Positions 12,291 to 44,799 of a stretch of DNA of 50,705 bases are shown here, one piece after another; position 1 is the first letter of the stretch, and each line of letters begins with the position of its first letter. The translations under genes and the position numbers were made by a program. The DNA is from Akkermansiaceae bacterium. Its GTDB lineage: Bacteria; Verrucomicrobiota; Verrucomicrobiia; Verrucomicrobiales; Akkermansiaceae. Where the stretch lies: NCBI GenBank assembly GCA_030725745.1, contig JANRFH010000002.1:85699-136403 (forward strand), in the 5' to 3' direction. Below the pieces are notes generated by a model that was not told where the DNA came from, did not search any database, and saw only the letters and a list, made by a program, of their open reading frames with translations.

Positions 12291-12327
12291 AAACTTTAAA
12301 CTTTAGATTTTAAACTCCAAGGAAGAG
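12291..12327. repeat. 37-bp heptad element upstream of gldG
   Basis: On the plus strand the units are AAACTTT, AAACTTT, AGATTTT and AAACTCC, followed by AAGGAAGAG: four heptads plus a 9-base end. It begins one base from the GldG-like start codon and ends two bases from the upstream permease stop, so it fills the whole spacer. Copies of exactly the same length lie at 22123-22159 and 44763-44799. Confidence 0.85.
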
Positions 12328-12328
12328 A

Positions 12329-13060
12329 TTAGGCGCGTTTGGCGCTGAGGATGGTGGAGGTGCCGATGAGGCAGAGGCCGATGAAGGAGACGAACCAGAC
12401 GAGATCCTGTAGGCGGAAGAGGCCACGGGTGAGGGAGGAGAAATGATCCCAGACGCCGAAGGAAATGACGGCTTCGACAGTGGATTTCGAGGTGGCCTTG
12501 GCTAGCTCGCGGGTGAAGGAGTCATATCCGCAGAGCACCATGATGGTGCAGATGGTAACGGAGACGATGAGGCAGACGACCTGATCGCGGGTGCATGCGG
12601 AGACGAGCATGGTGATGGCGATGAAGGTGCAGCAGACGAGGAAAGAGCCGATGTATCCGGAGGCGATGGTACCGTTGTCAGGGCTGCCGAGGTAGTTCAC
12701 CGTGAGGATGATGGGGAAGGTGAGGAGGAGCGCGACGAGCGAGACCGTGGCGGCGGCGAGGAATTTTCCGACGATGGCAGACCATGTGGAGACGGGGAAG
12801 GTGCCGAGAAGCTCGATGGTGCCGGTGCGCTGCTCATCCGCCCAGAGCTTCATGGCGATGGCAGGGGCGATGAGCATGTAGAGCCACGGGTGCCAGAAGA
12901 AGAAGGAGTATTCGAGCGAGGCATCGCCGACATTCATGAACTCACCGAAGGAGAAGGTGAATCCCAGCGAGAGGAGGAGGAAGATGACGATGATCGCGTA
13001 GGCGGTGGGCTGGGCGAAGTAGGATTTTAACTCGCGCTTGAAGATGGTGAGGGAAGACAT
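12329..13060 (-). CDS. ABC-2 type permease (GldF-like)
   Basis: An inner-membrane permease of the ABC-2 family, 243 residues with six hydrophobic helices. It begins with a cytosolic FKRELKSYFAQPTAYAI stretch before helix 1, and contains WHPWLYMLIAPAIAMKLWADEQRTG, the typical region after helix 2, and FPVSTWSAIVGKF. It is the membrane partner of the ATPase encoded just upstream and of the GldG-like protein downstream. The start at 13060 is ATG. Substrate unknown. Confidence 0.9.
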   Translation of the reverse strand: MSSLTIFKRELKSYFAQPTAYAIIVIFLLLSLGFTFSFGEFMNVGDASLEYSFFFWHPWLYMLIAPAIAMKLWADEQRTGTIELLGTFPVSTWSAIVGKFLAAATVSLVALLLTFPIILTVNYLGSPDNGTIASGYIGSFLVCCTFIAITMLVSACTRDQVVCLIVSVTICTIMVLCGYDSFTRELAKATSKSTVEAVISFGVWDHFSSLTRGLFRLQDLVWFVSFIGLCLIGTSTILSAKRA

Positions 13061-13082
13061 GGGTATTAAGTAAAAAGTGCCG

Positions 13083-13101
13083 AGTGATCAGTGATCAGTG
13101 G
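13083..13101. repeat. GTGATCA tandem motif in the ATPase-permease spacer
   Basis: AGTGATCAGTGATCAGTGG is a short tandem of the 7-base unit GTGATCA within the 61-base gap between the ABC ATPase stop and the permease start. It has the same seven-base period as the heptad elements but a different sequence. Its function is unknown. Confidence 0.5.
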
Positions 13102-13121
13102 GAAGACTTTGCTTGTTGAAT

Positions 13122-13847
13122 TTATGCGGCGGTGTCGGTGGTGGTGACTTTGCGGAAGAGGTCGGTGAGGGAGCCGTTGGGGGCTTGGGCGAGGAGTTCT
13201 TTCGGGGTGCCGTCGGCGACGATTTTTCCGCGATCGACGATGACAGCGCGGGTGCAGGAGGCTTCGACTTCTTCGAGGATGTGGGTGGAGAAGAGGATGG
13301 CCTTGGTCTCGCCGAGACGCTTGATGAGCTGGCGGACTTCGTATTTCTGGTTGGGATCGAGGCCGTCGGTGGGCTCATCGAGGATGAGGACTTCGGGATC
13401 GTGGAGGAGGGCTTGCGCGAGGCAGGTGCGGTGGCGGTAGCCTTTTGAGAGGGTGTCGATGGATTGGCGGGCGACGCTGGTGAGGAAGCAGGTTTCGATG
13501 GAGCGCTCGACGGCTTCGTTTTTCTCGGGGCCGGTGAGTCCGCGGATTTCGGCGCAGAATTTGAGGAAGCCGATGACCGTCATGTCGTTGTAGAGCGGGG
13601 CGGATTCCGGGAGGTAGCCGATCTTGCGTTTCGCGGCGGCTGGGTTTTCTACGATGGAGATTCCGCAGATTTTAGCGTCGCCGGAAGTGGGTGGTATGAA
13701 TCCTGTGACCATGCGCATGGTGGTGGATTTTCCTGCTCCGTTGGGGCCAAGGAATCCTAGGACATCGCCTTTTTCGACGGTGAATGAGAGATTGTCCACG
13801 GCGAGCTTGCTTCCGAAACGTTTGGTGAGTTTTGCGGCTTCGATCAT
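13122..13847 (-). CDS. ABC transporter ATPase (GldA-like)
   Basis: A cytosolic ATP-binding subunit of 241 residues. Walker A is GPNGAGKSTT (about 34-43). The signature motif is unusual: the position of LSGGQ reads LSKGYRHR, as in GldA/NatA-type ATPases. Walker B is LILDEPTDGLDP, with the H-loop in FSTHILEE. It opens the minus-strand operon ATPase - permease - GldG - DUF4340. The start at 13847 is ATG. Proximity gives the partner assignment; substrate unknown. Confidence 0.93.
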   Translation of the reverse strand: MIEAAKLTKRFGSKLAVDNLSFTVEKGDVLGFLGPNGAGKSTTMRMVTGFIPPTSGDAKICGISIVENPAAAKRKIGYLPESAPLYNDMTVIGFLKFCAEIRGLTGPEKNEAVERSIETCFLTSVARQSIDTLSKGYRHRTCLAQALLHDPEVLILDEPTDGLDPNQKYEVRQLIKRLGETKAILFSTHILEEVEASCTRAVIVDRGKIVADGTPKELLAQAPNGSLTDLFRKVTTTDTAA

Positions 13848-13947
13848 GATGGGTTACGAGAGTGTGCGGGCACGCACTTTTTAGGCGTTACGTGTTTATT
13901 TGCGACACGGAAAGCGGGATTTGTTTGGGAAATTGGATGATGCGCTA

Positions 13948-14006
13948 GGAGCGCTTGCTTTAGCTGGCGTGCGGGATGGTGACTCGCCGCCTAAAGGCAG
14001 CGCTCC
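13948..14006. repeat. Hairpin repeat (GCTTTAGCTGGCGT family, copy 2)
   Basis: GGAGCGCTTGCTTTAGCTGG starts the left arm (13948-13970), and the right arm at 13982-14006 is its imperfect complement, with compensating-looking changes around CCGCCTAAAGGC. The left arm is nearly identical to that of the hairpin at 7885-7943. It lies 8 bases from the clpX stop on the minus strand and may end clpX transcription. Confidence 0.75.
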
Positions 14007-14013
14007 TTCCAAC

Positions 14014-15315
14014 TTACGCGGCGTCTTCCTCGGCGCTGCTGGATTTTCGGCGGCGGAGGGAGGGGGCTTTGGTGCCTTCGACGACGGCGCGGTTGATGGA
14101 GACGCCTTCGATATCGCCACGGGAGGGGACATCATACATGACATCGAGCATCATTTTTTCGAAAATGGATCGGAGGGCGCGTGCACCGGTGCCGCGTTCG
14201 ACAGCCATGGCTGCGATGGCGCGGAGAGCGTCGCGAGTGATGCGGAGCTTCGCACCATTGAGGGCGAGTTGCTTGGAGTATTGTTTCACCAAGGCGTTTT
14301 TCGGCTCGGTGAGGATCTGGACGAGTTCCTGCTCGGTGAGCTTGCGCAGGGCGGTAATGACTGGGAGTCGACCAATGAACTCGGGGATGAGGCCGAAGTG
14401 GAGGAGGTCTTCTGGTAGAACTTTTTCGAGGATTTTGGCGGATTTTTCGTCGAAGACGTCGGTGTTTTGCTCCGAGTGGAAGCCGAGGGTCTTGCTGCCG
14501 AGGCGGCGGCGGACGATGTCTTCGAGGCCGACGAATGCTCCGCCGCAGATGAAGAGGATTTTCTCGGTGTTAATCTGGATGTATTCCTGCTGCGGGTGCT
14601 TGCGGCCACCCTGCGGTGGGACGTTGCAGACGGTGCCTTCGAGGATTTTCAGGAGGGCTTGCTGGACGCCTTCACCCGAGACGTCGCGGGTGATGGAGAC
14701 GTTTTCGGTCTTGCGGCCGATTTTGTCGATTTCATCAACGTAGATGATGCCGCGTTCGGCGCGCTCGACATCGAAGTCGGCAGCTTGAAGGAGGCGGAGG
14801 ATGATATTTTCTACATCTTCGCCAACATAGCCGGCCTCGGTGAGGGTGGTGGCATCGACGATGCAGAAGGGGACGTCGAGGACGCGTGCGAGGGTGCGTG
14901 CGAGGAGGGTTTTTCCTGAACCGGTTGAGCCCAAGAGGAGGACGTTGGATTTCTCGATCTCCACGTCGTTATATTCGGCGGAGACTCCGAGATCGTCTTG
15001 ATTGAGGCGGAGGTAGTGGTTGTAAACGGCGACGGAGAGGACGCGTTTGGCGATTTCCTGGCCGATGACGTAGTTGTCGAGCTCAGCGACGAGCTCTGCG
15101 GGTGTGGCTGACGTTTCCTTAGGGCGGGAGCCTTTCTTGCTCTTCTTGCCTGAGCCAGACTCCTCGGGTGGGTTGAGTTCCTTGGCGAGGATGTTGCCGC
15201 AGACGTCGACGCATTCGTTGCAAATATACACGCCGGGGCCAGCGATGAGTTTCTTGACCTCTGAGTGGCTCTTTCCGCAGAAGGAGCACATGGTGAGATT
15301 GGAAGCGCGTGCCAT
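14014..15315 (-). CDS. clpX: ATP-dependent Clp protease ATPase subunit ClpX
   Basis: An AAA+ unfoldase that feeds substrates to ClpP. It has 433 residues: an N-terminal zinc-binding domain with C10, C13, C32 and C35; a Gly/Lys-rich linker at about 51-68; Walker A GSTGSGKT near 129; Walker B YVDEID; a [11 protein letters not shown] segment; and the IGF-equivalent loop region, followed by the sensor-2 [10 protein letters not shown]. It lies 50 bases downstream of clpP on the minus strand in the conserved order tig-clpP-clpX. The spacer is a heptad repeat. The C-terminal tail ([13 protein letters not shown]) is variable. The ATG start at 15315 is set by the zinc domain. Confidence 0.97.
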
Positions 15316-15320
15316 GGGTG

Positions 15321-15355
15321 AAACTTTAAACCTTAAACTTTAAACTCTAAACTAA
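15321..15355. repeat. Heptad element in the clpP-clpX spacer (variant)
   Basis: Five seven-base units on the plus strand: AAACTTT, AAACCTT, AAACTTT, AAACTCT and AAACTAA. It belongs to the same family as 12291-12327 but lacks the AAGGAAGAG end, which is replaced by GAAATTTGG. It lies five bases from the clpX start codon, in the 5' untranslated region. Confidence 0.75.
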
Positions 15356-15365
15356 GAAATTTGGA

Positions 15366-16043
15366 TTAGTCCTTTTTGTCTAGCTCGGTCTGGACGGCGT
15401 CGGGGAGTTGTTTGCGGGATTCCAGGACTTTGTCGACGAGGCCGTAGGCTACGGATTCCTCGGCGGTCATGTAGTTGTCGCGGTCGGAGTCGTTTTCAAC
15501 TTCTTCGATGGTCTTGCCGGTGTGGTGGGCGAGGATGCCGTTGAGGCGTTTCTTGAGGTTGAACATGAAGCCGATGGTGCGCTCGACGTCTGAGGCAGTG
15601 CCCTGTGCTCCGCCGGAGACCTGGTGGATCATGACGTGGGAGTTCGGCAGGCAGAAGCGTTTGCCTTTTGTCCCTGCGGTGAGGAGGACGGAGCCCATGG
15701 ATGCGCAGATGCCGATGCAGTAGGTGTTCACATCACAAGTGAGGAACTGCATGGTGTCATAGATGGCAAGGCCTGCGGTGACGGAGCCGCCGGGGCTGTT
15801 GATGTAAATGTGGATGTCCTTTTTTGGATCCTGCATCTGGAGGAAAAGCAGCTGGGCGATGACCGAGTTCGCGACGTAATCATCGATGCCGACACCGATG
15901 AAGATGATGCGATCCTTGAGCAGGCGTGAATAGATATCGAACGAGCGTTCGCCGCGGCCATCGGACTCAACGACGACGGGGACGTAGTAGCTGTTCTTCG
16001 GTGCTTGCGGGGAGGAGTTGTTGGAAGGAGGGAAAAGGTTCAT
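15366..16043 (-). CDS. clpP: ATP-dependent Clp protease proteolytic subunit ClpP
   Basis: A tetradecameric serine peptidase, 225 residues. Catalytic Ser115 lies in CASMGS, His140 in SHVMIHQ, and the Asp in the DSDRDNYM segment near 187-189. Other family marks are [18 protein letters not shown] and the end AYGLVDKVL. The first 18 residues are Ser/Pro/Asn-rich and probably removed or disordered. It lies 6 bases after the trigger factor stop and 50 before clpX, giving the conserved folding-and-degradation operon. Confidence 0.97.
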
Positions 16044-16049
16044 TTCTGC

Positions 16050-17390
16050 TTATGCTTCTGGTGTGGCTTCAAATTCCTCTTGGGAAACTTCGGTGACCTT
16101 CGCCTCTTCCAAAAGGAAGTCAATGGTGCGACCGATGACCATGGAGTTCCGGATGGACTGGATCTGGTTGTTTTTCTGGAGATCCTTGATGACCTTTTTG
16201 ATGGGCTCCTTACGCTGCTGAGCGATCTGGCTGATGTGCTGGAGGAGATCGGCGTCTGGGACGGTGATCTTTTCCTCACCGGCGATTTCTTGGAGGATGA
16301 AGTTGGTGCGGAGGTTGGTGACGGCTCGCTGTGTGGCGGCTGCGAAGATCTGCTCTTCTTTGCCGGCGATGTCTTCATTGGAGGCACCAGCCTTGTTGCC
16401 TTCTTGGACGATGGCGTTTGCTTGGTTCTGCGTCTCGCGCGTGACGATATCCTCGGGGAGTTCGAACTGGGCGGCGGCGTTGAGTTGCTCGACGATCTGG
16501 TTGACCTTGAGTTCGTTGATCTGCTTGGTCTTTTCCTGGGACATGTTGCCCTTGATCATGTCCTTGATTTCCTCAAGCGACTTGTCAGGGACGAGTTTTG
16601 CGGCGAATTCGTCGTTCAGCTCAGGGAGTTTCGCTTCCTTGATGCCGGTGAGGGTGGTGTGGAGGGTCATTTCCTTGCCGCGTAGCTCCTCGAAGGGGAA
16701 TTCATCGTCGAGGGTGATAGTGACGTCCTTTTTGTCGCCTTCCTTCATGCCGACGAGCTGATCGGCGTAGCCGGGGAGGAAGGAGCCTTCTTTGATGGGG
16801 AGCCAGTGATTTTCACGCTTGGCGAGGTAGTTGCCCTTTTCACCGATGACTTCGGTGAGCGGCTGGCCATCGATAGTGGAGGTGAAATCGACGACGGCGA
16901 TGTCGTCATTCTGGAGAGGGCGGTCGGAAATGTCGTCGAACTCGGCGAGGCGCTCGCGGAGGTTTTCGAGCTGGGCGTTGATTTCCTCGTCGGTGACTTC
17001 AGCGGAAGGAGCTTTGACCTCAAGGCCTTTGTAAGTCGGGAGGGTGAACTCCGGGGCGAGGATGAGCTTGGTGTCGAAGGCGATGGAGCCGTCTGGGCGC
17101 TCGTTGACGTTATCCGGGAAGCCGAAGTCGAGGACTTTGAGTTTTTCTTTTTCGAGGGCTTGGTCGCAAGCTTCGCCGAAGAGGGCGTCCTTGAGTTCAT
17201 CAGAGATTTGTTTGCCGAAACGTTTCTGGATCACGCTTTTCGGGGCTTTTCCGGGGCGGAAGCCAGAGAGTTTTGCCTGGGATGCGTAGGTGGCGGTGAT
17301 GGATTCGCGCTTGGCGGCGACATCAGCGGAGGGAACCTCCACGCTGAGGGTTGCGATGCACTTTGGCTGTTTTTCGACGACGATATTCAT
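16050..17390 (-). CDS. tig: Trigger factor, ribosome-associated chaperone and prolyl isomerase
   Basis: Binds nascent chains at the ribosome exit. It has 446 residues from the ATG at 17390 (MNIVVEKQP), which matches the beta strand that starts this family; a further 20 in-frame codons upstream look untranslated. The ribosome-binding signature is FRPGKAPKSVIQKRFGK. The FKBP-like isomerase domain (about 155-240) includes DFTSTIDGQPL, PGYADQLVGMKEGDKKDV and FPFEELRGK. A long helical C-terminal domain ends EEFEATPEA. It starts the tig-clpP-clpX operon. Confidence 0.95.
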   Translation of the reverse strand: MNIVVEKQPKCIATLSVEVPSADVAAKRESITATYASQAKLSGFRPGKAPKSVIQKRFGKQISDELKDALFGEACDQALEKEKLKVLDFGFPDNVNERPDGSIAFDTKLILAPEFTLPTYKGLEVKAPSAEVTDEEINAQLENLRERLAEFDDISDRPLQNDDIAVVDFTSTIDGQPLTEVIGEKGNYLAKRENHWLPIKEGSFLPGYADQLVGMKEGDKKDVTITLDDEFPFEELRGKEMTLHTTLTGIKEAKLPELNDEFAAKLVPDKSLEEIKDMIKGNMSQEKTKQINELKVNQIVEQLNAAAQFELPEDIVTRETQNQANAIVQEGNKAGASNEDIAGKEEQIFAAATQRAVTNLRTNFILQEIAGEEKITVPDADLLQHISQIAQQRKEPIKKVIKDLQKNNQIQSIRNSMVIGRTIDFLLEEAKVTEVSQEEFEATPEA

Positions 17391-17464
17391 AAAATTTCTG
17401 CGGTGGGGCGGGGAAAGTAGGGTCGGGGGAGCCGGATTGGCAACTTTCAACTGGTAAGGGGGAT

Positions 17465-17502
17465 AAAAAAGCGCCGCAGCCTGTGTGAGAGGCAGCGGCG
17501 CT
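17465..17502 (-). terminator. Rho-independent terminator of the PEP-CTERM gene
   Basis: Arms AGCGCCGCAGCC (17470-17481) and GGCAGCGGCGCT (17491-17502) pair over 12 bases with one mismatch and are followed on the minus strand by a U-run (A-run 17465-17470). It lies 20 bases past the gene stop and isolates this gene from tig. Confidence 0.88.
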
Positions 17503-17522
17503 GGGGAGAATCAGAAACCTGA

Positions 17523-18355
17523 TTAGCGGCGGCGGCGGAGAAGGGCGAGTGCGCCCAAGGCTCCGAGGAGAGCGGTGGATGGCTCGGGAACCGCGTCAAA
17601 GGTGATGCCGGTGATGCTGCCGCCTTGAGCAGCGGTCCGTTGTGAATTTTCGATCGCAAAGACTCCGGATGTTTCGCCATTCAGATCGATGTCAAAAAAG
17701 ACCATGTTTGGAATGCTCCCGGCAGTGGTCTCCAAGCCTGTGACTGTAGAATACACGGTTGAACCACCGTCAGTGATTCGGAAACCGGTGGGATCCCAAC
17801 GCGCATCACTCGTTCCTTCGGTTCCGGCAATAATACCGAGACGGAATAGTTGCGGCGTGCTGGCATTGAAGGTGATTTCCAAGAGTTCACCCCATGCGCC
17901 GGCTCCACCTTCGTCTGTTCGTGTGTTGAAAGCGACATTCGCCCAGTCAGCAACAGTGGTGCTAATACCAACCGTAGGATTGTCCATCGGTCCCTGATCA
18001 CTGCTGGCACGGACATTGTTGGCCATGTGCTGTCCTGCCGTAACCGTGGCCCAGGTCGCTCCAACTTTGGTATGGGCAGCCGCGAAAGATGTGCCGCCGC
18101 TTCCAATAGCAGTTCCACCACCCATCATGACCAGCCCTTCGGTTCCGTAGGCATTGTCCACCGTGCCGACATCGAAGGTTTTGATGACACCGCTGGATCG
18201 GTAAGAGTTCACTTGGTTGGTTTGAGCGGCAACGCCGGTTGCGCCAAAGAGATCGTAACCCGTGCCATCACCCACAGCGGTACAATGATTGCGGCCTGGG
18301 ATGAGGCGGAAAACGCCAAAAGTGCGAAGGTTACTAGAGATGCGGGAATCTTCAT
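17523..18355 (-). pseudogene. PEP-CTERM-sorted exported protein, frameshifted after the signal peptide
   Basis: The C-terminus carries a textbook PEP-CTERM sorting tag (VPEPSTALLGALGALALL plus four arginines). The mature part has a beta-rich, Gly/Thr/Ala-rich composition of a surface protein. In the single 250-aa frame the only start is a GTG at 18275 and no signal peptide is present. A good signal peptide (MKIPASLVTFALLAFSASSQ, then AA) starts at an ATG at 18355 in another frame and runs into the mature frame at about 18280-18290; adding one base near GTACC/GCTGTG joins them. So the gene has a one-base deletion, a sequencing error, or a programmed -1 shift. Function otherwise unknown. Confidence 0.75.
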
Positions 18356-18446
18356 GTTGTTTTTGTTTTGGGGATTACTAGCTTCCGAGATGTGTAAATC
18401 GCTGAAATGCAAGGGTTTAACTTACCATCTACCGATGACTCGTCTG

Positions 18447-21264: not shown

Positions 21265-22122
21265 TCAGTCAGGAAAGACGATGGCGCGGTGGCCGTCGAT
21301 GATGGTGCGGTCGTGCACGTGGTAGCGGATGCCTTTTGCAAGGGCAGCGCGCTCGCAGTGGCGGCCGAGGCGGGCAAGATCTGTGGGGGAATGGAAGTGT
21401 GAGACACGCTCGACTTCCTGCTCGATGATAGGGCCTGCATCGAGGTCTGCGGTGACGTAGTGGCAGGTCGCACCGATGAGTTTCACCCCGCGATCGTGTG
21501 CTTGGCGGTAGGGGTTTGCGCCGATGAAGGCGGGCAGGAAGGAATGGTGTATATTGATGATCCTGCCCGAGAATTCCTGACAGAAGCTGTCCGGTAGGAT
21601 CTGCATGAAACGGGCGAGCACGATGAGCTCCACGTCCTGAGCGAGGATGAGATCGCGGATTTCGGCGAAGCCTTTTTCACGCTGCTCGCCATCCATCTCG
21701 ATGTGGTGGAAGGGCAGGTGAGAGCGTGCGGCGATGGGTGCGCAGGAGTCGCGGTTTGCGATGATGGAGGTGATCTCGATGGGCAGTTCGCCCAGCTCGG
21801 TGCGGAGGAGGATTTCGTTGAGGCAGTGGTCGGTCTTGGTGACGAGCACGGCGGTGCGCATTTTGTAAGGCAGCTCGCGGAAGTGCCAGTTCGCCCCGAG
21901 AGAGCGGCCAAGCGTGCCGAATCCGGTTTTGAAATCCTCGACAGTCACGTCCAGCCCGGAGGTGTCGATCTCCAGTCGCGCGAAGAATTTTTTCCCGATC
22001 TGATCGGAAAACTGGCTGAACTCCGTGAGGTTTCCGCTGTGCGAGGCAACGTATGAAGCGATCTTCGCGACGATGCCGGGGGAGTCCGGGGAGGAGAGCT
22101 TGAGGATGAGTCCAGGGCGCAT
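21265..22122 (-). CDS. purU: Formyltetrahydrofolate deformylase PurU
   Basis: Hydrolyses 10-formyl-tetrahydrofolate to formate and tetrahydrofolate, balancing one-carbon units and supplying formate for PurT. From the ATG at 22122 it has 285 residues. An N-terminal ACT domain (LKLSSPDSPGIVAKIASYV) is followed by the formyl-transferase fold: INIHHSFLPAFIGANPY carries the conserved Asn-His pair and ADLDAGPIIEQ the catalytic Asp. An in-frame TTG at 22131 lies inside the adjacent heptad repeat and is an unlikely start. It ends six bases from the convergent response regulator. Confidence 0.95.
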   Translation of the reverse strand: MRPGLILKLSSPDSPGIVAKIASYVASHSGNLTEFSQFSDQIGKKFFARLEIDTSGLDVTVEDFKTGFGTLGRSLGANWHFRELPYKMRTAVLVTKTDHCLNEILLRTELGELPIEITSIIANRDSCAPIAARSHLPFHHIEMDGEQREKGFAEIRDLILAQDVELIVLARFMQILPDSFCQEFSGRIINIHHSFLPAFIGANPYRQAHDRGVKLIGATCHYVTADLDAGPIIEQEVERVSHFHSPTDLARLGRHCERAALAKGIRYHVHDRTIIDGHRAIVFPD

Positions 22123-22159
22123 AACTTTCAAATTTCAATTTTCAACTCTCAAGGAAGAG
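22123..22159. repeat. 37-bp heptad element upstream of purU
   Basis: Plus-strand units are AACTTTC, AAATTTC, AATTTTC and AACTCTC, followed by AAGGAAGAG. It has exactly the length and end of the elements at 12291 and 44763, and it abuts the purU start codon with no intervening base. The minus-strand leader of purU therefore consists of CTCTTCCTT plus four AT-rich heptads and has no Shine-Dalgarno sequence. Confidence 0.85.
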
Positions 22160-22231
22160 GGCGAATGTAGGGGGCGGATGGTTGCGGGAAAATCGGTTGG
22201 TGACAAGCCTGCCGGTGGGTAGGCTGGGGAC

Positions 22232-27129: not shown

Positions 27130-27855
27130 ATGTCCGTAGCCACTCCAACTTCAGAAAAGATCCTAGTAGATAATATGCGCGTCTCAATCGGAGGCAGCAC
27201 TATCCTGCGTGGGGTGGGATTTGGAATCCGTGAAAAATCCGTCTTCTGCCTCATGGGAAGGAATGGTGTCGGCAAGAGCACTACGCTCAAGGCGTTGATG
27301 GGACTGCTCCCGTTAGACTCTGGGACAATCACGCTAGACGGTGAGAAGATCCACCGCATGCCGACAGCGTTGCGCGCGCGCGCTGGCCTTGCTTACGTCC
27401 CGCAGGGACGCGACATTTTTCCTCATCTGAGTGTCGAAGAGAATCTCTACATTGGCCTCAAGGCTCGCGGAGCGAAAAAAGACAAGGAAGAGATTGATCG
27501 CGTCTTTACCCTGTTTCCGATCATTCGAGAATTCCTAAACCGCAAGGGTGGCATGCTTTCAGGTGGTCAGCAGCAGCAGCTCGCGATCAGTCGTGCGCTG
27601 CTTACAAAGCCGAAGCTCCTCATCCTCGACGAGCCTACCGAAGGTATTCAGCCAAACATCATTGACCAGATCGGGGATGCTATCAAAATGCTCCGCGAAG
27701 AAGGGAAAATGGCGATACTACTGGTTGAGCAGTATCTTGATTTCTGCCGTGAGCTTGGCGATGATTTCGCAATTCTTGATCGGGGCTCAGTATGCGCCTC
27801 CGGTCAAATGGGTGATCTGAGCGACGGGATCGTGAAGGAGTTTCTTACCGTTTGA
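27130..27855 (+). CDS. urtE: Urea ABC transporter ATPase UrtE
   Basis: An LivF-like ATPase, 241 residues. Walker A GRNGVGKSTTLKALMGLL, AYVPQGRDIFPHLSVEENL, LSGGQQQQLAISRALL, Walker B LLILDEPTEGIQPNI and the H-loop LVEQYLDF are all intact. It pairs with UrtD. The run of 219 bases downstream before the porin contains regulatory-looking DNA. Confidence 0.95.
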   Translation: MSVATPTSEKILVDNMRVSIGGSTILRGVGFGIREKSVFCLMGRNGVGKSTTLKALMGLLPLDSGTITLDGEKIHRMPTALRARAGLAYVPQGRDIFPHLSVEENLYIGLKARGAKKDKEEIDRVFTLFPIIREFLNRKGGMLSGGQQQQLAISRALLTKPKLLILDEPTEGIQPNIIDQIGDAIKMLREEGKMAILLVEQYLDFCRELGDDFAILDRGSVCASGQMGDLSDGIVKEFLTV

Positions 27856-28008: not shown

Positions 28009-28046
28009 AAACTTATCCGGGTTCGTCAAATATGATTGGCCCACAC

Positions 28047-28074
28047 AACACACGATAAACAACACACGATAAAC
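28047..28074 (+). repeat. 14-base tandem duplication directly before the porin start codon
   Basis: AACACACGATAAAC occurs twice in exact tandem (28047-28060, 28061-28074), and the ATG begins two bases later. The leader contains no G-rich Shine-Dalgarno sequence. An exact duplication at this place suggests either recent slippage or a repeated translation or RNA-protein site. Confidence 0.8.
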
Positions 28075-28075
28075 A

Positions 28076-28927
28076 ATGAAAAATAAATATCAACGCACCC
28101 TCATCCAATCTGCCGTTCTTGCGACAGGACTAGGCAGTGGTATCGCGCTCGCTGGTCCTATCGAAGTAGAACCGGCTCCTGAGATGGAAGTTGCTACCGA
28201 AGACGTCGTCTCAGGCTCCCTGAGCCTTGATTTCAACTCCCACTTCGTTTCCTACGGCGTTGACGTTTGGAATGATGGAGATTCAATGAGTGATCCTACA
28301 TTCAATCCTTCCCTGGAGCTTGCATTTGCTCTTCCTGGAGATGTAACTTTCACCCTGGGAACTTGGTGGGATGTCAACAGCAAGGCTCAGAGTACCCTCG
28401 GTGGGCGTATTCAGGAAATTGATGTCTGGGCTGGTCTTTCCAAGGACTTCGGTCCAGTCAGTCTTGGTGTCACATATCAAGCCTGGATGTATGGTGGTAC
28501 TACAGAAGAGATTCTCGATATCTCTATCGGTTATGATACTTTTCTCTCCCCATCTCTTGTGATTCACAATCGTCTAGATTCAGGCGCTTCTGGTGGGGAC
28601 ACCGGAACGGTTCTTGTCCTTGGGCTTGAGCATGGCATCGAAGCAGGGCCTGTTTCGATCTCCTTCCCATTCAGCATCGCATACTTCACGGATGAAGGTT
28701 TCCACGGCACGGGTCCAATAGCTGCTGGTGGAGCCGACAGTGGTATCGGCTACGCAAGTTTCGGAGTCGGATTTTCAGTTCCTCTCTCCACCGTGGTTGG
28801 CGAAGCCTACGGTGATTGGGATCTGCATGGTGGACTTACCTATTACGTAACCGATCGGGACGTCATCCCGGGTCGCGCTAAGGGTGATTTCCTCACTGCA
28901 AACGTTGGTCTCGGCCTTTCCTTCTAA
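28076..28927 (+). CDS. Outer-membrane beta-barrel porin of the urea uptake locus
   Basis: A 283-residue exported protein. The signal peptide (about 1-26) ends ALAGP. A short acidic linker follows, then alternating hydrophobic strands with aromatic girdles (SLSLDFNSHFVSYGVDVW, TFTLGTWWDVN, YQAWMYGG). The last strand ends in Phe (LTANVGLGLSF), the usual signal for outer-membrane insertion. It is placed between urtE and urtA, so it probably lets urea or short amides cross the outer membrane, as FmdC-like porins are proposed to do near other urt loci. The family (TorF-like/DUF-type porin) is judged from pattern only. Confidence 0.78.
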   Translation: MKNKYQRTLIQSAVLATGLGSGIALAGPIEVEPAPEMEVATEDVVSGSLSLDFNSHFVSYGVDVWNDGDSMSDPTFNPSLELAFALPGDVTFTLGTWWDVNSKAQSTLGGRIQEIDVWAGLSKDFGPVSLGVTYQAWMYGGTTEEILDISIGYDTFLSPSLVIHNRLDSGASGGDTGTVLVLGLEHGIEAGPVSISFPFSIAYFTDEGFHGTGPIAAGGADSGIGYASFGVGFSVPLSTVVGEAYGDWDLHGGLTYYVTDRDVIPGRAKGDFLTANVGLGLSF

Positions 28928-33007: not shown

Positions 33008-33433
33008 ATGCATCTGATCGAAAGGATGGTCGCGCCGGAGTCTGACAAGCTTCCAGAACACAGAATTGAGCTAGCAGTCGAACGACGAAAATTCTTGAAG
33101 CGTAGGTGGCGTGGGACGGCTTCTGATGGTACGGATTTTGGTTTCGATCTTGAGAGCAGACTCACTGATGGATGCGTGATTTTTCAGAGTTTGGAAAATG
33201 ACTACATCGTCCGCCAGCTTCCGGAGAAGGTCTATGAGGTTCCGTTTTCAAATCCCGAGGAAGGAGCATTAATCGGCTGGAAAGTCGGAAACTTGCACCT
33301 CCCGGCACAGGTCATGGATGGCTCTCTCCGCATTCTTCATGATGATGCGATGAAACAGCTGCTCGAGCGCGAGGGCTGGCCATTTTCCGAACCCGAAGTC
33401 CTCTTCACCCCCATGAAGGTGATGGCGCATTGA
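33008..33433 (+). CDS. ureE: Urease accessory nickel-binding protein UreE
   Basis: A metallochaperone that hands nickel to the UreG-UreF-UreD complex. It has 141 residues with the UreE N-terminal domain (KRRWRGTASDGTDFGFDLES) and the C-terminal metal-binding GWKVGNLHLPAQVMDGSLRIL. It lacks the long His-rich tail of some homologues; only the final AH remains. This makes another nickel store, such as the His-rich protein at the head of the operon, plausible. It starts two bases after the ureC stop. Confidence 0.9.
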   Translation: MHLIERMVAPESDKLPEHRIELAVERRKFLKRRWRGTASDGTDFGFDLESRLTDGCVIFQSLENDYIVRQLPEKVYEVPFSNPEEGALIGWKVGNLHLPAQVMDGSLRILHDDAMKQLLEREGWPFSEPEVLFTPMKVMAH

Positions 33434-34170
33434 AAATTCAAATTCCAAATCTCAAACTTCAAAAAGACTCTTCCTCTGTGTCCTCTGCGCTCTCTGCGGT
33501 TAAAAATCCGCCCGATCCTTTGCTCTGGCTACTGCAGTCAAACGATACCGGCTACCCATCCGGCGGCTACGCGCATTCGTATGGCTTGGAGGAGTTGGTA
33601 AGGGTGGGAGTTGTCAAAGATCCGGAAAGCCTAGAGCGCTTTCTCATGAAGCAGGTTGTTCCTGCGCTGTTGCGTTTTGAACTTCCGTTTTTCAAGAAAG
33701 CCCACCGCGCGGCTTCGGAAGGTGATTCCGATTTATTGCGTAAGATCGATGCGGAGCTGGATGCATGGCGCATCGCTCCGGAGTTGCGAGATGCAAGCCG
33801 TCGTGTCGGTTCCCAGCGGCTTGGACTGCTATGTGAATTGGATAATTCCGTGTTCATCTCAGATTTCCGAAAGACCAATCCGCGAGCACACCATCTCGCC
33901 GTCACCGCTATCGAACTCCGCAACATACCGGCTCCTGATGCAGCGCGCGCCTTCGCTTTCCAAGCAATTGTCTCTGGCACGGCTGCTTCCATGAAGCTCA
34001 TGCGCATCGGACAAATCGCCTGCCAGACTATCCTAAACCGCGTTCTCATCCAGCTTGGCTCCGAGGTGGATGCTTCCCTCAAAGTTGAACCCGACGGATT
34101 TTTTAACCCACTTCTAGAAATTGCTTCCCTCAAACACGCCCACTCCAATGAACGACTCTTCATCTCCTGA
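33430..34170 (+). CDS. ureF: Urease accessory protein UreF, with repeat-derived N-terminus
   Basis: Part of the UreD-UreF-UreG complex that loads nickel and CO2 into urease. The conserved body begins at about residue 28 with [29 protein letters not shown] and continues to the typical C-terminal [20 protein letters not shown]. The start at TTG 33430 overlaps the ureE stop; the first 27 residues ([14 protein letters not shown], then [11 protein letters not shown]) are encoded by intergenic repeats and have no family similarity. A GTG at 33478 would remove most of this. It overlaps ureG by 23 bases. Confidence 0.88.
33433..33506 (+). repeat. Heptad element fused to a CTCTGTG...GGTTAAAAA repeat at the 5' end of ureF
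   Basis: Four seven-base units, AAAATTC, AAATTCC, AAATCTC and AAACTTC (33433-33460), are followed by AAAAAGACTCTTCCT and then a repeat-like stretch (33472-33506) with TCCTCTGCGCTCTCTGCGG and TTAAAAA. The last motif is related to the palindrome arms at 42319-42429, which also carry GCGGTTAAAA. These sequences lie wholly inside the ureF reading frame and appear to be intergenic repeats. Confidence 0.7.
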
Positions 34171-36036: not shown

Positions 36037-36041
36037 GCTTC

Positions 36042-39461: not shown

Positions 39462-39462
39462 G

Positions 39463-40716
39463 CTAGTGTGACAAGATCCAGGCAATGGTCTTGTCGGCGA
39501 GCTTGTCCATGGCGACGACGGATTGGGCGATGTGCTCTTCCTTGGTATCCTCGATCTTGTTGTGGCTGATACCGTGCAGGCTCTGCACGAACATCATCAC
39601 GGTCGGGATGCCGGCTAGGGAAACTTCTGCCGCATCATGCAGCGGGCCGGACGGCATGCGGTGGACGACACCGCACGTTTCGTGAATGGCTTGCCCGCAA
39701 TGATCAATCAGCTCCGGGTGAAACGGCTCCGGAGCGATCTGCCAAATACGTTCCCAGGAAACTTCGCAGCCAGCTTCTCCGGAAAACCGCATACTGGCAT
39801 CATCAGCCTCATAGAGCATTTGCTTTAGAGACTCTGCATCAATGTGCCTTTGATCCAGTGTGATCTCGCATTCGGCGACGACGCTCGTCACGATCCCCGG
39901 CTTGGTTTTACAGGAGCCGATGGTGCAGACGCCTCCATTGCGGCGTGTGATTTCGTAGATTTCAGGAGCCATTCTCGCTGCTGCGAGAAATGCATCCTGC
40001 CTGCGATCCATGGGGGTGCTTCCCGAGTGCGCGGCCTGGCCGTGGAAGGTGATTCTGTGCCTTTCGACACCGCACGTTCCGAGGACAACAGCCAGCGGCA
40101 GATCGAGATCTAGCAGCACGGGCCCTTGCTCGATGTGGAGTTCGAGATACGCGGCAGCGTTCGCCTGTTCTGCGGTTGCCTGTTTGACGTTTTCGAAATC
40201 GATACCGAACTCCGCGAGGGCATCGACCAGTGAAATGCCGTCCTTGTCAGTCAGGCCGCGGGCTTCCTCCATGTTGAGGTTTCCCGAGAAAGCGGAGGAG
40301 CCGAAAAGGCTTTTGCCAAAGCGCGCGCCTTCCTCATCCGCCCAATCGACCACGCGTATCGTCACCGGAGGCTTGCCCTTGTATTGGGCGTTGAGGCGTC
40401 GGAGAATTTCTACCCCTGCCATGACGTTGAGGCAGCCATCGAGCCAGCCGCCGTTCGGCACGGAATCCATGTGGCCTCCGATGATAAGGCATTTTTCTGA
40501 TTCGCCGGGCAGGGTGAACCAGAGGTTTCCCGCAGCATCGGTCGTTTCGCTCACAGGCAGTTCGGACATGATAGCCTTGAGCCAATTTCGCGCTTTGGCC
40601 CATGTTTCCGTAAAAGCGACGCGCTGTGCACCGTTTTCGTCACCGGTAATTTCCCGCAAATTTTTCAGCTCTGCGATGGTTCTTTGCGGATCGAGTGTTT
40701 GAGATGGTGTAGTCAT
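39463..40716 (-). CDS. Zn-dependent N-carbamoyl amidohydrolase, M20 family (beta-ureidopropionase-like)
   Basis: Cleaves an N-carbamoyl group from amino acids, giving CO2, ammonia and the amine. With its neighbours the likely substrate is N-carbamoyl-beta-alanine (or the beta-aminoisobutyrate analogue). It has 417 residues. Zinc and binding motifs are complete: GGHMDSVPNGGWLDG (His, Asp), ADEEGARFGKSLFGSSA (Glu), HIEQGPVL (His), FHGQAAHSGSTPMDRRQDA and MPSGPLHDAAEVS (His). Allantoate amidohydrolase is the main alternative; the surrounding genes favour pyrimidine breakdown. It is divergent from the dehydrogenase gene with a 99-base shared promoter region. Confidence 0.88.
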   Translation of the reverse strand: MTTPSQTLDPQRTIAELKNLREITGDENGAQRVAFTETWAKARNWLKAIMSELPVSETTDAAGNLWFTLPGESEKCLIIGGHMDSVPNGGWLDGCLNVMAGVEILRRLNAQYKGKPPVTIRVVDWADEEGARFGKSLFGSSAFSGNLNMEEARGLTDKDGISLVDALAEFGIDFENVKQATAEQANAAAYLELHIEQGPVLLDLDLPLAVVLGTCGVERHRITFHGQAAHSGSTPMDRRQDAFLAAARMAPEIYEITRRNGGVCTIGSCKTKPGIVTSVVAECEITLDQRHIDAESLKQMLYEADDASMRFSGEAGCEVSWERIWQIAPEPFHPELIDHCGQAIHETCGVVHRMPSGPLHDAAEVSLAGIPTVMMFVQSLHGISHNKIEDTKEEHIAQSVVAMDKLADKTIAWILSH

Positions 40717-40757
40717 GGCTCGCGGGTTTACGCTGTGTGGGTTACAGGTGCTTTAAG

Positions 40758-40773
40758 TGGCATGGCAAACGCT
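40758..40773 (+). promoter_or_regulatory. Possible sigma-54 promoter before mmsA
   Basis: TGGCATGGCAAACGCT matches the -24 element at TGGCA and G, and the -12 element at GCT, with correct spacing; position 6 and the two central Ts differ. Predicted transcription start is near 40784, 32 bases before the ATG at 40816. It lies in the divergent gap with the amidohydrolase gene. Confidence 0.5.
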
Positions 40774-40815
40774 AGCCCAAGCTCCTTATGTGCCAAAACC
40801 TGAATCTCCGCAACC

Positions 40816-42315
40816 ATGAGTGACTCCTCCACACCCCTATGCCCGAATTACCTAGATGGAAAATGGGTAACACCTTCCGGAAAAGAAACTTCCAATGTTT
40901 ACAATCCATCGCGCGGATCGGTCATCGCCGGTGTGCCGATGTGCGGAAAAGTAGAGGTTGATGCCGTCGTTGCTTCCGCTCTTAAAGCCTTCCCAGATTG
41001 GGGCGACACTCCTCCGAACGAACGAGCCCAAGTGTTATTTCGTGCTAAGATCATGCTTGAAGATGCGTTCGACGAACTCTGCCTCGGCATTGCGACGGAG
41101 CATGGAAAAACACTTTCCGAAGCGCGTGGTGATTTGCGGCGTGGCATCGAAGTCGTCGAGTATGCGTGCGGCGTCCCGACCCTGCTGATGGGCGAGAGCT
41201 TGGAGAACATCGCGCGTGGAATCGATTGCCATACGGATCGCCACCCGCTCGGTGTGGTGGCTGGCATCTGCCCTTTCAATTTCCCCGCGCTCGTCCCGAT
41301 GTGGATGTGGCCACTGGCCATTGCTTGTGGAAATACCTTTGTCCTCAAGCCCAGCGAGAAAGTGCCGCTCACCATGCAGCGCGTGGTGGCGATCCTTGAA
41401 AAAGCAGGCCTGCCGCCGGGTGTGATGAACATCGTGCACGGCGGGCGCGAGTGTGTGGATGCGATCTTGGAGCACCCGGATGTTAAGGCGATCAGCTTCG
41501 TAGGCTCCACCCCGGTAGCTCGCGAAATTCATCGCAAGGGTACGCTAAATGGCAAGCGTGTGCAGGCGGCGGGTGGTGCGAAGAATTTCATCATCCTCAT
41601 GCCGGATGCAGACATCGACCGCACCGTCGAGGCGGTGAAGGACGGCGCTTTCGGCTGTGCTGGAGAAAGGTGCATGGCGGGTTCTACGGCAGTTGCCGTA
41701 GGTGAGGCGGGTGAGAGGCTTCTCCCTGCACTGGCAGATCTGGTGAGCTCCATGAAAACGGGGACGACCGATACCGTGGACTCCCAGCCAGACATGGGGG
41801 CGGTTATTTCCGCTGAGCACCGCAGCAAGGTCGCGGGCATCATTGATGCGGGCGAACGTGCGGGTGCCAAAGTGCTTTCAGATGGTCGCCCGGTGAAGGT
41901 GAATGAGGCTCCGGAAGGATTTTTCCTCGGCCCCACGCTCATCGATCACGTGGAGGAATCGAATCCGATCATGGAAACAGAAGTCTTCGGCCCCGTGCTT
42001 GCAGTGCTGCGTGCGAAGACTCTCGACGAGGCCATCGAAAAGGCGAACCGGCAGGCATTTGGTAACGGAGCAGCGATTTTCACCAACTCGGGCAAGGCAG
42101 CCCGTGAATTCCGCCGCAAGGTGAGTGCTGGTATGGTGGGTATCAATGTGGGTGTTCCTGCGCCGTTGGCGTATTTCCCTTTCACAGGTTGGAATGATTC
42201 ATTCTTCGGTGATCTCCATATCCAAGGGAAAGAAGGTGTGGAATTCTACACCCAGCGTAAGACTACGACGACGCGGTGGTTTGGCTTCGGGGATGGGGAG
42301 ATCTGGGCTAAGTAG
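40816..42315 (+). CDS. mmsA: CoA-acylating methylmalonate/malonate-semialdehyde dehydrogenase
   Basis: Converts malonate semialdehyde (from beta-alanine) or methylmalonate semialdehyde to acetyl-CoA or propionyl-CoA with NAD+ and CoA, releasing CO2. It has 499 residues of the aldehyde dehydrogenase fold: catalytic Cys286 in CAGERCMAG, GVVAGICPFNFPALVPMWMW, KPSEKVPLTM, and the MmsA-type C-terminus MVGINVGVPAPLAYFPFTGW (with SFFGDLHIQGKEG following). It fits as the last step of the uracil pathway. A long palindrome separates it from hydA. Confidence 0.93.
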   Translation: MSDSSTPLCPNYLDGKWVTPSGKETSNVYNPSRGSVIAGVPMCGKVEVDAVVASALKAFPDWGDTPPNERAQVLFRAKIMLEDAFDELCLGIATEHGKTLSEARGDLRRGIEVVEYACGVPTLLMGESLENIARGIDCHTDRHPLGVVAGICPFNFPALVPMWMWPLAIACGNTFVLKPSEKVPLTMQRVVAILEKAGLPPGVMNIVHGGRECVDAILEHPDVKAISFVGSTPVAREIHRKGTLNGKRVQAAGGAKNFIILMPDADIDRTVEAVKDGAFGCAGERCMAGSTAVAVGEAGERLLPALADLVSSMKTGTTDTVDSQPDMGAVISAEHRSKVAGIIDAGERAGAKVLSDGRPVKVNEAPEGFFLGPTLIDHVEESNPIMETEVFGPVLAVLRAKTLDEAIEKANRQAFGNGAAIFTNSGKAAREFRRKVSAGMVGINVGVPAPLAYFPFTGWNDSFFGDLHIQGKEGVEFYTQRKTTTTRWFGFGDGEIWAK

Positions 42316-42318
42316 AAA

Positions 42319-42429
42319 TTTTAACCGCTAAGACGCAAAGGCGCGAAGCTAGAAAGAATAAGTTTTTGAGAAAATAGAGAAATATTTTTCACAACCCAGC
42401 TTTGCGCCTTTGCGTCTTAGCGGTTAAAA
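42319..42429. repeat. Long palindrome with 32-bp arms in the mmsA-hydA spacer
   Basis: Arms at 42319-42350 and 42398-42429 are inverted copies matching at 31 of 32 positions. Their inner core is TAAGACGCAAAGGCGC and its complement, and their outer ends are TTTTAACCGC / GCGGTTAAAA. The 47-base loop is AT-rich and has no gene. It fills nearly the whole spacer: it starts four bases after the mmsA stop and ends ten bases before the hydA start. In RNA it would form a strong hairpin between two genes of the same pathway. The same GCGGTTAAAA end occurs inside ureF. Confidence 0.9.
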
Positions 42430-42439
42430 AATCTAAGAC

Positions 42440-43861
42440 ATGCCACTCCTCATCAAAAACGCCACCATTGTCACTGCCGACGAGACTTTCGCCGGTGATG
42501 TGCTTGCCGAAGACGGAGTTATCAAGGAAATCGGTGCCGGGCTTTCTGCTCCGCATGCGGAGATGATTGATGCGACGGGCAAATATCTTTTCCCCGGCTT
42601 CATCGATCCGCATGTTCACATTTACCTGCCGTTCATGGGGACGTTCTCGAAGGATGATTATGCCTCGGGAAGCAAGGCGGCGCTGATGGGTGGGACGACG
42701 ACTTTGATCGAGATGTGTTGCCCGGCAAGGTGCGAGGATCCTCTGGAGGCGATACGGCTTTGGAAAAGCAAGGCGGCAGGGATTTCCTCCTGCGACTATA
42801 CTTTTCACATGGGCGTGACGCGTTTCGATGAAACGACAGCCGAAGCGCTCGACATCATTGTGCGCGAAGAAAAGGTGACTTCTTTGAAAATCTTCCTCGC
42901 CTACAAGGGAGCGTTTGGAATCGAGGACAACGAGCTTTATAAGACGTTATCTTTTGCTGCCGATCGCGGGTTGGTCGTTACCGCACACTGCGAGAATGCT
43001 GATCTGGTGTCGGAGAGGCAGAAGAAACTTGTGGCTGAGGGCAAGACTGGCCCCGAATGGCACGAGCCCTCTCGTCCAATTTCGGTGGAGGCAGATGGCT
43101 GCCACCACCTGATGACTTTTGCGGAGGCGACTGGTGCGGAGGTTTATGTGGTTCACACGAGTTGTATTCCGGCAGTCGAGGCGATCGAGGCGGCTCGGAA
43201 GCGCGGGGTGAAGGCGCACATCGAGACGGTGGCGCCTTATCTGACGCTCGACAGCTCGTATGCGGAGCTCCCGGATTTTGAGGGGGCGAAGTTTGTGATG
43301 TCGCCACCGATCCGTGAAAAGAAACACGGGGATTTTCTCTGGAAGAAAATCGCGGATGGAACGGTGGATACTGTCGGAACCGATCATGCGCCCTTTGATT
43401 TTGAAACCCAGAAGCGTATGGGGCATCCGGAGAATGCTCTGGATGCGGGCATGAACCCCACGGGTAAGCCGGGGAATTTCACGTTGATCCCAAACGGTAT
43501 TCCAAGCGTGGAGGAGCGGGTGAAACTGCTCTACACCGACGGGGTGTGTGAAGGGAAAATTGATCTTCAGACTCTCGTCCGATGCGCGAGCACGAATGCG
43601 GCGAAGATCTTTGGGCTGTATCCGAGGAAAGGCGCGATCCAGATCGGCAGCGATGCGGATCTGGTGCTTTGGGACCCGGAGTATCGGGGTGAGATTTCCG
43701 TAAAAACCCACTCGATGGCGACAGACTACTCCGCCTTCGAGGGCAAAAAGGTAAAAGGCTGTGCGGAGCTTGTCACCGTGCGCGGTCAGGTGCTGGTACG
43801 GGATGGCGAGTGGGCTGGGAAAGGTGGGGAAGGTTGTTTCCTTGTGCGTAGTGTGGGTTAA
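42440..43861 (+). CDS. hydA: Dihydropyrimidinase
   Basis: Hydrolyses dihydrouracil to N-carbamoyl-beta-alanine. It has 473 residues of the cyclic-amidohydrolase family. Metal ligands H58 and H60 (PHVHIYLPF), the carbamylated K150 in SLKIFLAYKG, H183 in AHCENADLV, a further His in YVVHTSC, and D near 316 in GTDHAPFDFE are present. The WHEPSRPISVEADG insertion and SDADLVLWDPEYRG C-terminal sheet fit dihydropyrimidinase/hydantoinase. Allantoinase is the alternative. The ATG at 42440 follows the palindrome by ten bases. A second copy of the dispersed repeat follows 23 bases after its stop. Confidence 0.92.
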   Translation: MPLLIKNATIVTADETFAGDVLAEDGVIKEIGAGLSAPHAEMIDATGKYLFPGFIDPHVHIYLPFMGTFSKDDYASGSKAALMGGTTTLIEMCCPARCEDPLEAIRLWKSKAAGISSCDYTFHMGVTRFDETTAEALDIIVREEKVTSLKIFLAYKGAFGIEDNELYKTLSFAADRGLVVTAHCENADLVSERQKKLVAEGKTGPEWHEPSRPISVEADGCHHLMTFAEATGAEVYVVHTSCIPAVEAIEAARKRGVKAHIETVAPYLTLDSSYAELPDFEGAKFVMSPPIREKKHGDFLWKKIADGTVDTVGTDHAPFDFETQKRMGHPENALDAGMNPTGKPGNFTLIPNGIPSVEERVKLLYTDGVCEGKIDLQTLVRCASTNAAKIFGLYPRKGAIQIGSDADLVLWDPEYRGEISVKTHSMATDYSAFEGKKVKGCAELVTVRGQVLVRDGEWAGKGGEGCFLVRSVG

Positions 43862-43884
43862 AAATCTTCTACTCTATTTTCCTA

Positions 43885-44082
43885 TGATCCTGAAAGGATC
43901 GCAGCAAGTAGCCGGGGGTTGCGCGAAGCGACTACCCCCGGAGCGCTTGGGAAAATTTCAAGTGATCCAGAAGGGATCGCAGCGGGCTGGCATACCCTTC
44001 GGGATGCAATATCTCGGATGATGGAACCGGGGGTGTTCGCTGCGCTCGACCCCCGGCTACTTGCTGTCATCCCGCCGGGATA
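43885..44082. repeat. Dispersed inverted-repeat element, copy 2 (~198 bp)
   Basis: It starts TGATCCTGAAAGGATC like copy 1 at 2939, with AGCAAGTAGCCGGGGGT next, and ends with the complementary CTCGACCCCCGGCTACTTGC followed by ATCCC. The central part carries GGATGC/GGCATACCC pairs. The terminal arms of copy 2 are closer to perfect than those of copy 1 at the right end but altered at the left (TTGCGCGAAGCGACTACCCC). The element fills the gap between the convergent hydA and phosphatase genes. Confidence 0.85.
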
Positions 44083-44114
44083 AGAGACTTAGGATGTGTG
44101 CGGATAATGTCGCG

Positions 44115-44756
44115 TTAGTGATTCAGTAGGGCATTGAGCTCCTCCGCATCATCCGCGATGGCATCTGCGTAGGAGAGGTGTTCGCGGTCGTGGTAGCCCC
44201 AGGTGACGGCGATGGATTTCATGCCAGCGTTTTTCGCGGTGTCGAGATCCATGGTGGAGTCGCCGACGAGGGTGCATTGCTCCGGAGAGAGGGCGAGGGT
44301 GGCGGCGATTTCCAGTGCTCCGGTGGGGTCGGGCTTGTGGGCGAGGCCTTCGCGGTTGCCGAGGATGGCGGCGAAGGTGTTTGCCGGGAAAAGCTTTTCG
44401 ACGATCTCCACGGTGAAGGGGTGGGGTTTGTTCGAGAGGACGGCGAGGGGGACGTTTTTTGCAGAAAGATCGGCAAGGGCTTCTAAGATGCCGGGAAAGA
44501 TGGAAGTGCCGGTGGGCCATGAGACGGCATAGTCTTCGGCGAAAAACTTGAGGATGCTGGCGCGTGTTTCATCGGTGGAGGCGGTGGGAACGGCACGTTG
44601 GACGAGCATTTTCGCCCCATCTCCGATGAAGGTACGGACGGCGGCATGGCCGTGCTGTGGTAGTCCGTGCATGGCGAGGGCACGGTTGAGCGACGCGGCA
44701 ATGCCGGGGAGGGACTCCACGAGGGTGCCGTCGAGATCGAAGATAATGGCTTTCAC
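44115..44756 (-). CDS. HAD family phosphatase, phosphoglycolate phosphatase-like
   Basis: A cytosolic HAD hydrolase, 213 residues. HAD motif I is FDLDGTLVES (nucleophile D7 and acid/base D9), motif II lies in VLSNKPH, motif III at HKPDPTGALEIA (Lys) and motif IV at LVGDSTMDLDTAKNAGM. Gph of this type removes phosphoglycolate made from damaged 3' ends of DNA. PpaX-like pyrophosphatase or another sugar phosphatase is possible; sequence alone does not decide. The ATG start at 44756 has a heptad element 6 bases upstream. Confidence 0.85.
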   Translation of the reverse strand: MKAIIFDLDGTLVESLPGIAASLNRALAMHGLPQHGHAAVRTFIGDGAKMLVQRAVPTASTDETRASILKFFAEDYAVSWPTGTSIFPGILEALADLSAKNVPLAVLSNKPHPFTVEIVEKLFPANTFAAILGNREGLAHKPDPTGALEIAATLALSPEQCTLVGDSTMDLDTAKNAGMKSIAVTWGYHDREHLSYADAIADDAEELNALLNH

Positions 44757-44762
44757 TGGGGG

Positions 44763-44799
44763 AAACTTTAAATTTTAAACTTTAAACTTCAAGGAAGAG
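44763..44799. repeat. 37-bp heptad element in a divergent spacer
   Basis: Plus-strand units AAACTTT, AAATTTT, AAACTTT and AAACTTC, followed by AAGGAAGAG. Third complete copy with the same 4 x 7 + 9 plan. It lies between the HAD gene (minus) and the permease gene (plus), nearer the former, with the same orientation relative to the HAD gene as the other complete copies have to theirs. Confidence 0.85.

Follow-up and report, generated by a model that had tools for sequence, protein, structure and literature searches.

A heptad-repeat element of nearly fixed length that meets gene starts, and less often gene stops, with one defined end in Akkermansiaceae

Why should a short element built of seven-base units recur directly before the start codons of several genes in a single stretch of DNA, always in the same orientation? 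The window considered here, 50,705 nucleotides of contig JANRFH010000002.1 (positions 85,699 to 136,403; assembly GCA_030725745.1) of an Akkermansiaceae bacterium, the source genome below, raises this question. The original prediction described three complete copies of such an element, each separated by 0 to 6 nt from a start codon and with its CTCTTCC end on the far side from the gene, and all three were confirmed in the sequence with that plan and at those positions. Read in gene sense, the element consists of [C/G]TCTTCCTTGA, three or four RTTTRRR heptads (the TTTRRRR register) and a final GTTTC, with a nearly fixed total of ∼39 nt; the profile yields the consensus CCTCTTCCTTGAAGTTTAAAGTTTAAAATTTAAAGTTTC, in which purines are often swapped. 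The CTCTTCC end, which faces away from the gene, is here called the head, and the GTTTC end, which lies against the gene, the tail.

The window copies belong to a dispersed family. A strand-resolved profile built from the source genome gave 45 matches above the threshold score of 14 in 571,655 bases of that genome, only one more between 8 and 14, and none in Markov-1 shuffles. A strict first pattern found no match; a search for the head with three heptads, allowing at most three mismatches, gave 28 + 48 = 76 matches in the whole source genome, and its reversed control gave none. At the same tolerance (AAACTTT)x3 had 116 + 78 matches versus 19 + 11 for its reversed control, numbers that count hits rather than sites, because a single array may match in more than one register, the reversed pattern being itself another heptad family. 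Among 172 arrays of at least three units, 98 had three, 56 four, 14 five and 4 six, and five inverted pairs bracketing one spacer were present among the 45 profile copies. A hairpin in the head was rejected, as its stem pairs at 2.42 of 4 positions, compared to 2.45 in shuffles. The exact pattern was found in 39 stretches of metagenome-assembled contigs assigned to Verrucomicrobiales, Verrucomicrobiaceae, Akkermansiaceae, Akkermansia, Luteolibacter or Prosthecobacter, a collection from which the source genome itself may be left out. The three-heptad pattern matched at least once in 13 of 39 relatives, and the head plus heptads occurred in the source genome only among 288 genomes sampled across the phylum, a sample with three others of the genus, none a known carrier.

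The placement of the element is strongly polar. Genes were called with two codon models in five related genomes, whose stretches hold 168 copies; 165 are flanked on each side by a called gene, two of these are intragenic, and the other 163 were analyzed. A gene edge is no more than 12 nt from the tail in 120 of the 163 and no more than 12 nt from the head in 26. In spacers of at least 80 nt the corresponding numbers are 78 and 1 of 117, where random position and orientation would give ∼21. The tail faces a start in 122 copies and a stop in 41, and with tighter bounds 104 copies lie at starts (tail −20 to +25 nt) and 37 at stops; some of those at larger distances are probably due to wrongly called starts or missed genes. 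Tails in co-directional spacers of up to 70 nt point toward the start in 29 cases and toward the stop in 4, and the spacer edges available in the source-genome sample were 385 starts and 311 stops. The predicted start codon placement stands for the 104 copies and fails for the 37, in mirror orientation at stops; these stop-adjoining copies, about one-quarter of the set, were absent from the original prediction. Their tails mostly overlap the stop codon by 1 to 10 nt, because the stop is provided by a TAA within the heptads or by a TGA that the tail helps to form. As the TAA of the heptads acts as a stop in every frame, a stop-side copy ends its gene cleanly.

Comparison of orthologous genes indicates that the element is shared at starts above chance. 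Both members carried it in 43 pairs, one only in 39 and neither in 225, with 12.7 "both" pairs expected by chance, and the chance that a second orthologue carries the element, given the first, was 0.69 against a baseline of 0.20. When one pair was taken per orthogroup and pairs between the close genomes G015 and G017 were left out, ∼12.7 pairs had both and 18.3 had one. The distance from tail to aligned start differed by no more than 2 nt in 42% of orthologous pairs, compared to 23% of random pairs. At orthologous stops, four pairs had both (two of them from G015-G017) and 28 had one, or 0.9 and 8.2, respectively, when a single random pair stood for each orthogroup.

The form of the element is retained while much of its sequence changes. 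In the 36 far pairs, from which the close pair G015-G017 is left out, elements were 73% identical, compared to 32% for the 25 nt upstream and 50% for 4-fold sites. Elements at unrelated genes were 66 to 71% identical between genomes, and identity within genomes (0.659) equaled that between genomes (0.657), with no sign of genome-specific homogenization; the variable positions are therefore near saturation while the frame stays. Changes in far pairs affected 8 of 324 comparisons at the nine TT positions, 104 of 324 at the nine purine positions and 139 of 288 at the eight outermost head positions, and the TT figure is somewhat biased because the positions were picked after the profile had been seen and the pairs were accepted by that same profile. 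Simulated neutral change to 60 to 45% identity leaves 2 to 0.03% of copies above the threshold. Selection for form, as originally proposed, is indicated by the near-fixed TT among changing purines, by the equal identity within and between genomes and by the presence of other repeat families in the same place in some relatives.

Does this start preference belong to heptads in general? In the source genome, period-7 arrays were found at 31 of 380 start edges, 13 of 303 stop edges, 3 of 674 mid-spacer positions and 1 of 1399 coding positions, arrays in short spacers being countable from both edges; no other period from 5 to 11 exceeded 7 of 380 at start edges. Four relatives, G018, G023, G006 and G044, have 0, 1, 2 and 2 weak profile matches, respectively, in 80 to 100 kb each; three of them had no match in the pattern search of the 39 relatives, and G044 lay outside that search. 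Period-7 arrays are frequent in the spacers of these genomes, with no clear excess at start edges (12 of 217) over mid-spacer positions (26 of 658); the counts were 16 of 185 at stop edges and 6 of 2533 at coding positions. The proposal that any heptad array prefers starts is unsupported in these family-poor genomes, and the preference therefore belongs to the GTTTAAA-type family.

Leaders lacking a Shine-Dalgarno (SD) sequence were part of the original prediction, and no clear SD signal was found. Among 1043 genes without the element in the five genomes, SD 4-mers occurred within −18 to −4 in 11.6%, versus 10.5% and 14.6% in controls, and 5-mers in 4.8%, versus 2.3% and 4.1%. For the source genome alone, 4-mers occurred in 14.0% of 420 genes (controls, 13.6% and 17.4%), and a search for 16S rRNA, whose end carries the anti-SD sequence, gave no match in the source assembly. 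Element leaders have a GC content of 0.31, compared to 0.51 for others (101 versus 760 genes), and a minimum free energy over −40 to +20 of −6.4 versus −9.4 kcal/mol; they are slightly less structured than their own shuffles.

The reading that we favor, while rating it at somewhat less than an even chance, is that a dispersed heptad repeat, similar in kind to those described in Xanthomonas and Nostoc, has been kept at starts as an SD-independent, unstructured translation leader. Copy number, polarity, positions, sharing at starts, low TT change, the lack of a clear SD signal and weak leader structure were computed, and from these we infer the leader role. Element RNA at start codons would form an AU-rich, unstructured leader on which translation could begin independently of SD pairing, and the element would be retained for that reason. 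Ribosomal protein S1 or another RNA-binding protein might contact the U-triplets, which lie seven nucleotides apart. The copies at stop codons would then be, for the most part, tolerated by-products.

Several observations weigh against a leader role. At the 37 of 163 copies in mirror orientation at stops, the RNA would be the complement, and a start codon role is therefore not the whole story; these copies are the chief weakness of a reading by translation only and the chief support for a DNA-level or neutral one. Relatives in which the family is absent or nearly so show no clear start preference of period-7 arrays. When each orthogroup contributes a single pair, the contrast between sharing at starts and at stops has the same direction and does not reach significance (median P of 0.13). 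The profile that selected the pairs itself weights T positions, and repeated insertion at favored sites could also produce shared copies. Finally, orthologues often lack the element, with 21 of the 39 discordant pairs having no recognizable repeat, and therefore no single gene needs it.

The strongest competitor, somewhat unlikely in our judgment, is a nonfunctional dispersed heptad repeat of the short tandemly repeated repetitive (STRR) or simple sequence repeat type, the insertion of which targets coding edges or is tolerated only there. Without SD signals, the bases beside a start would be under no constraint, and copies in the middle of a spacer, by landing on promoters or terminators, would be removed. 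The occurrence of copies at stops as well as starts, their low sharing at orthologous stops, the many copies absent from orthologues (39 discordant start pairs) and the confinement of the family, as sampled, to part of one genus are all consistent with such a repeat. Against it, simulated neutral decay cannot hold the profile at the observed divergence, the TT positions vary far less than the others, and a neutral process alone does not yield the 78-to-1 excess of tails over heads at gene edges.

Mirror symmetry at starts and stops, also reported for the heptamers of Xanthomonas and Nostoc (PMC4692102), would be expected if a protein bound the duplex heptads as a gene boundary element at either gene end, with the same action whichever way the element is turned relative to transcription. 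We regard such a DNA-level element as unlikely, given the bias of 122 copies to 41 toward starts in spite of the much more even supply of start and stop edges and given the low sharing at stops.

The promoter, repetitive extragenic palindromic (REP) and quadruplex readings failed their tests wholly or in part. If the element served as promoter for mRNAs that have no leader or almost none, the TTTAAA by the start would be the −10 box. Such a promoter would fit the end of TTTAAA ∼5 nt before ATG and the conserved TTG upstream, a putative assignment of boxes, and is improbable: all heptads are equally constrained, rather than two boxes around a free spacer, divergent starts are not enriched (31 of 104, versus 418 of 1046 for all starts with spacers of at least 35 nt), and element spacers are shorter (median of 96 versus 145 nt). 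REP sequences and their paired form, REPINs, are small dispersed palindromic repeats with GTAG or CGTC tags that occur in inverted pairs, with Verrucomicrobia among the hosts (PMC3733652). A similar element moved by a REP-associated tyrosine transposase (RAYT) has very little to recommend it: ten Y1_Tnp (IS200/RAYT-type) matches in the source genome would fit it, and small size, dispersal, inverted pairs and ends able, as in REPs (PMC3733652), to provide stop codons are shared features, against which stand the lack of a palindrome or head stem and the absence of GTAG and CGTC from the consensus. Six of the ten Y1_Tnp regions were examined, and copies lie near one of them.

Some starts carry other repeats in place of the element. 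Loci of relatives were read by eye (27 and 25 of 30 each, three and five partial or unrelated ones being left out), and TTTCAAA-type heptads precede the gene for ABC_transp_aux in 8 of 27, while clpX is preceded by TTTCAGC-type octads in G018, G023 and G040 and by CTTCTGT heptads in G006. The 39 discordant start pairs comprise 6 with weak members, 6 without a spacer, 21 without a recognized repeat and 6 with another period. Two of the last 6 resemble the TTGAAA variant with a misplaced start, which leaves four pairs at three starts, where the replacing repeats are CATTCGCGTT decamers, CTTTGCG octads and TTTCAGC octads. An extra pair, in which one orthologue has CACTGTC-type heptads at the start where the other has GTTTAAA, did not reach the period threshold in the final count. 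Of eight readable CACTGAT contexts elsewhere in the source genome (a ninth, displaced by a contig end, is uncounted), four end in GGAAGAC or GTCTTCC and two more in GGGAGAC; these contexts are a lead toward, not proof of, a head common to several families. It is conceivable, and in our view doubtful, that the leader is modular, with a shared head ([C/G]TCTTCC) joined to tandem tracts that can replace one another: GTTTAAA or CACTGAT units and, at several orthologous starts that are few in all, CATTCGCGTT, CTTTGCGT or TTTCAGC units. If so, a short-repeat rhythm rather than one sequence would be read at starts in a lineage without SD, by contact with a multidomain RNA-binding protein or the ribosome.

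Long regular arrays stand directly before clpX in two relatives, with ∼8 CTTCTGT heptads in G006 and >10 TTTCAGC-type octads in G040. In the source genome, an array of CACTGAT/TACTGTT heptads at C49:30139-30215 is far longer than the usual few units, and contig C2 (e.g., 644-764, 27176-27361 and 128014-128137) has families of 8 to 10 bases (CGAATGAACGC, CACGAAGGCACGAAG and CTAAGACGCAAAGGCG) as inverted pairs at both spacer ends.

Tandem heptads are also known from cyanobacteria, the STRR heptanucleotides of which include the P6b repeats of the trnL intron. The nearest relatives in kind are the GGGAATC and GGGGA(C/T)T heptamers of Xanthomonas and Nostoc (Rehm et al. 2015; PMC4692102), which often lie beside the same genes in two species, form G-quadruplexes and range from 2 to 26 units; heptamer repeats are overrepresented in several bacterial genomes, and that paper gives no role that had been found for them. 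The present family resembles them in its tandem 7-nt units at many intergenic places, in a comparable number of units, in the presence of inverted pairs and in a mirror polarity to open reading frame edges. It differs from the heptamers as described there in having only 3 to 6 units per array, a conserved head, start preference and TT constraint, and in lacking four G or C tracts: none of the 168 copies has four GGG or CCC tracts, and quadruplexes are therefore not needed for such an arrangement. The same source mentions STRR heptanucleotides of Calothrix, which are likewise tandem heptads in several families. The element is of the same kind as the Rehm heptamers, without their quadruplexes and wide variation in length, and adds to that kind a head, a start preference and constraint.

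For Bacteroidetes, leaders without SD and without structure have been described, with S1 proposed as their reader (Accetto and Avgustin 2011; PMC3155529), and SD-scarce Verrucomicrobia, Akkermansia among them, are named in PMC10783764. The leaders studied here agree in lacking an SD signal and in being low in GC and weakly structured; the passages of either account on leaders and SD usage mention no dispersed heptad element. The S1 proposal is the nearest worked-out idea. Literature searches listed no description of the present element, the one match to its sequence string being a nematode paper. The set unites nearly fixed length, a head, strict edge polarity and a signature of constraint in genomes without a clear SD signal, and it joins two questions, the role of dispersed heptads and the choice of start codons without SD pairing.

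In the window, all copies lie on the minus strand. The element at 12290-12328 (profile score, 37.8) fills the entire 39-nt spacer between the genes for an ABC-2 permease (12329-13060) and ABC_transp_aux (10418-12289, ATG at 12289). The TTGAAA variant at 22122-22160 (30.9) abuts the ATG of a formyltransferase/ACT (PurU-like) gene (21265-22122), its profile window overlapping the A of that ATG, and the copy at 44762-44800 (42.6) lies in a divergent spacer 5 nt before the GTG of a HAD hydrolase gene (44115-44756). Of the copies originally called degenerate, the one before clpX (14014-15315), at 15320-15358, is a profile member (31.7) with a degenerate head and its tail 4 nt from the ATG. A second, at 33432-33470 (26.2), had been placed in ureF and is of the stop type rather than the start type: in mirror orientation, its tail overlaps the stop codon of a UreE-like gene (33008-33433, plus strand). 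It lies within the 5′ part of a mechanical ureF frame that opens at 33430 and matches Pfam UreF from residue 62 onward. The third, in the AT-rich spacer before the gene for DUF4340 (10378-10417, minus strand), had no profile match at a score of at least 8 and is not a member.

The first of these elements lies in an operon that runs from an ABC ATPase gene (13122-13847) through those for the permease and ABC_transp_aux to that for DUF4340 (9130-10377). Its three spacers hold, in this order, another heptad family of similar plan (13061-13107, minus strand), with a GTCTTCC head and CACTGAT-type heptads ending at the permease ATG; the GTTTAAA element; and the AT-rich nonmember sequence. Elsewhere in the window, at 28045-28076, a perfect 14-base tandem repeat (ACAACACACGATAA, 2.3 copies) reaches the ATG at 28076 and is another repeat that touches a start codon.

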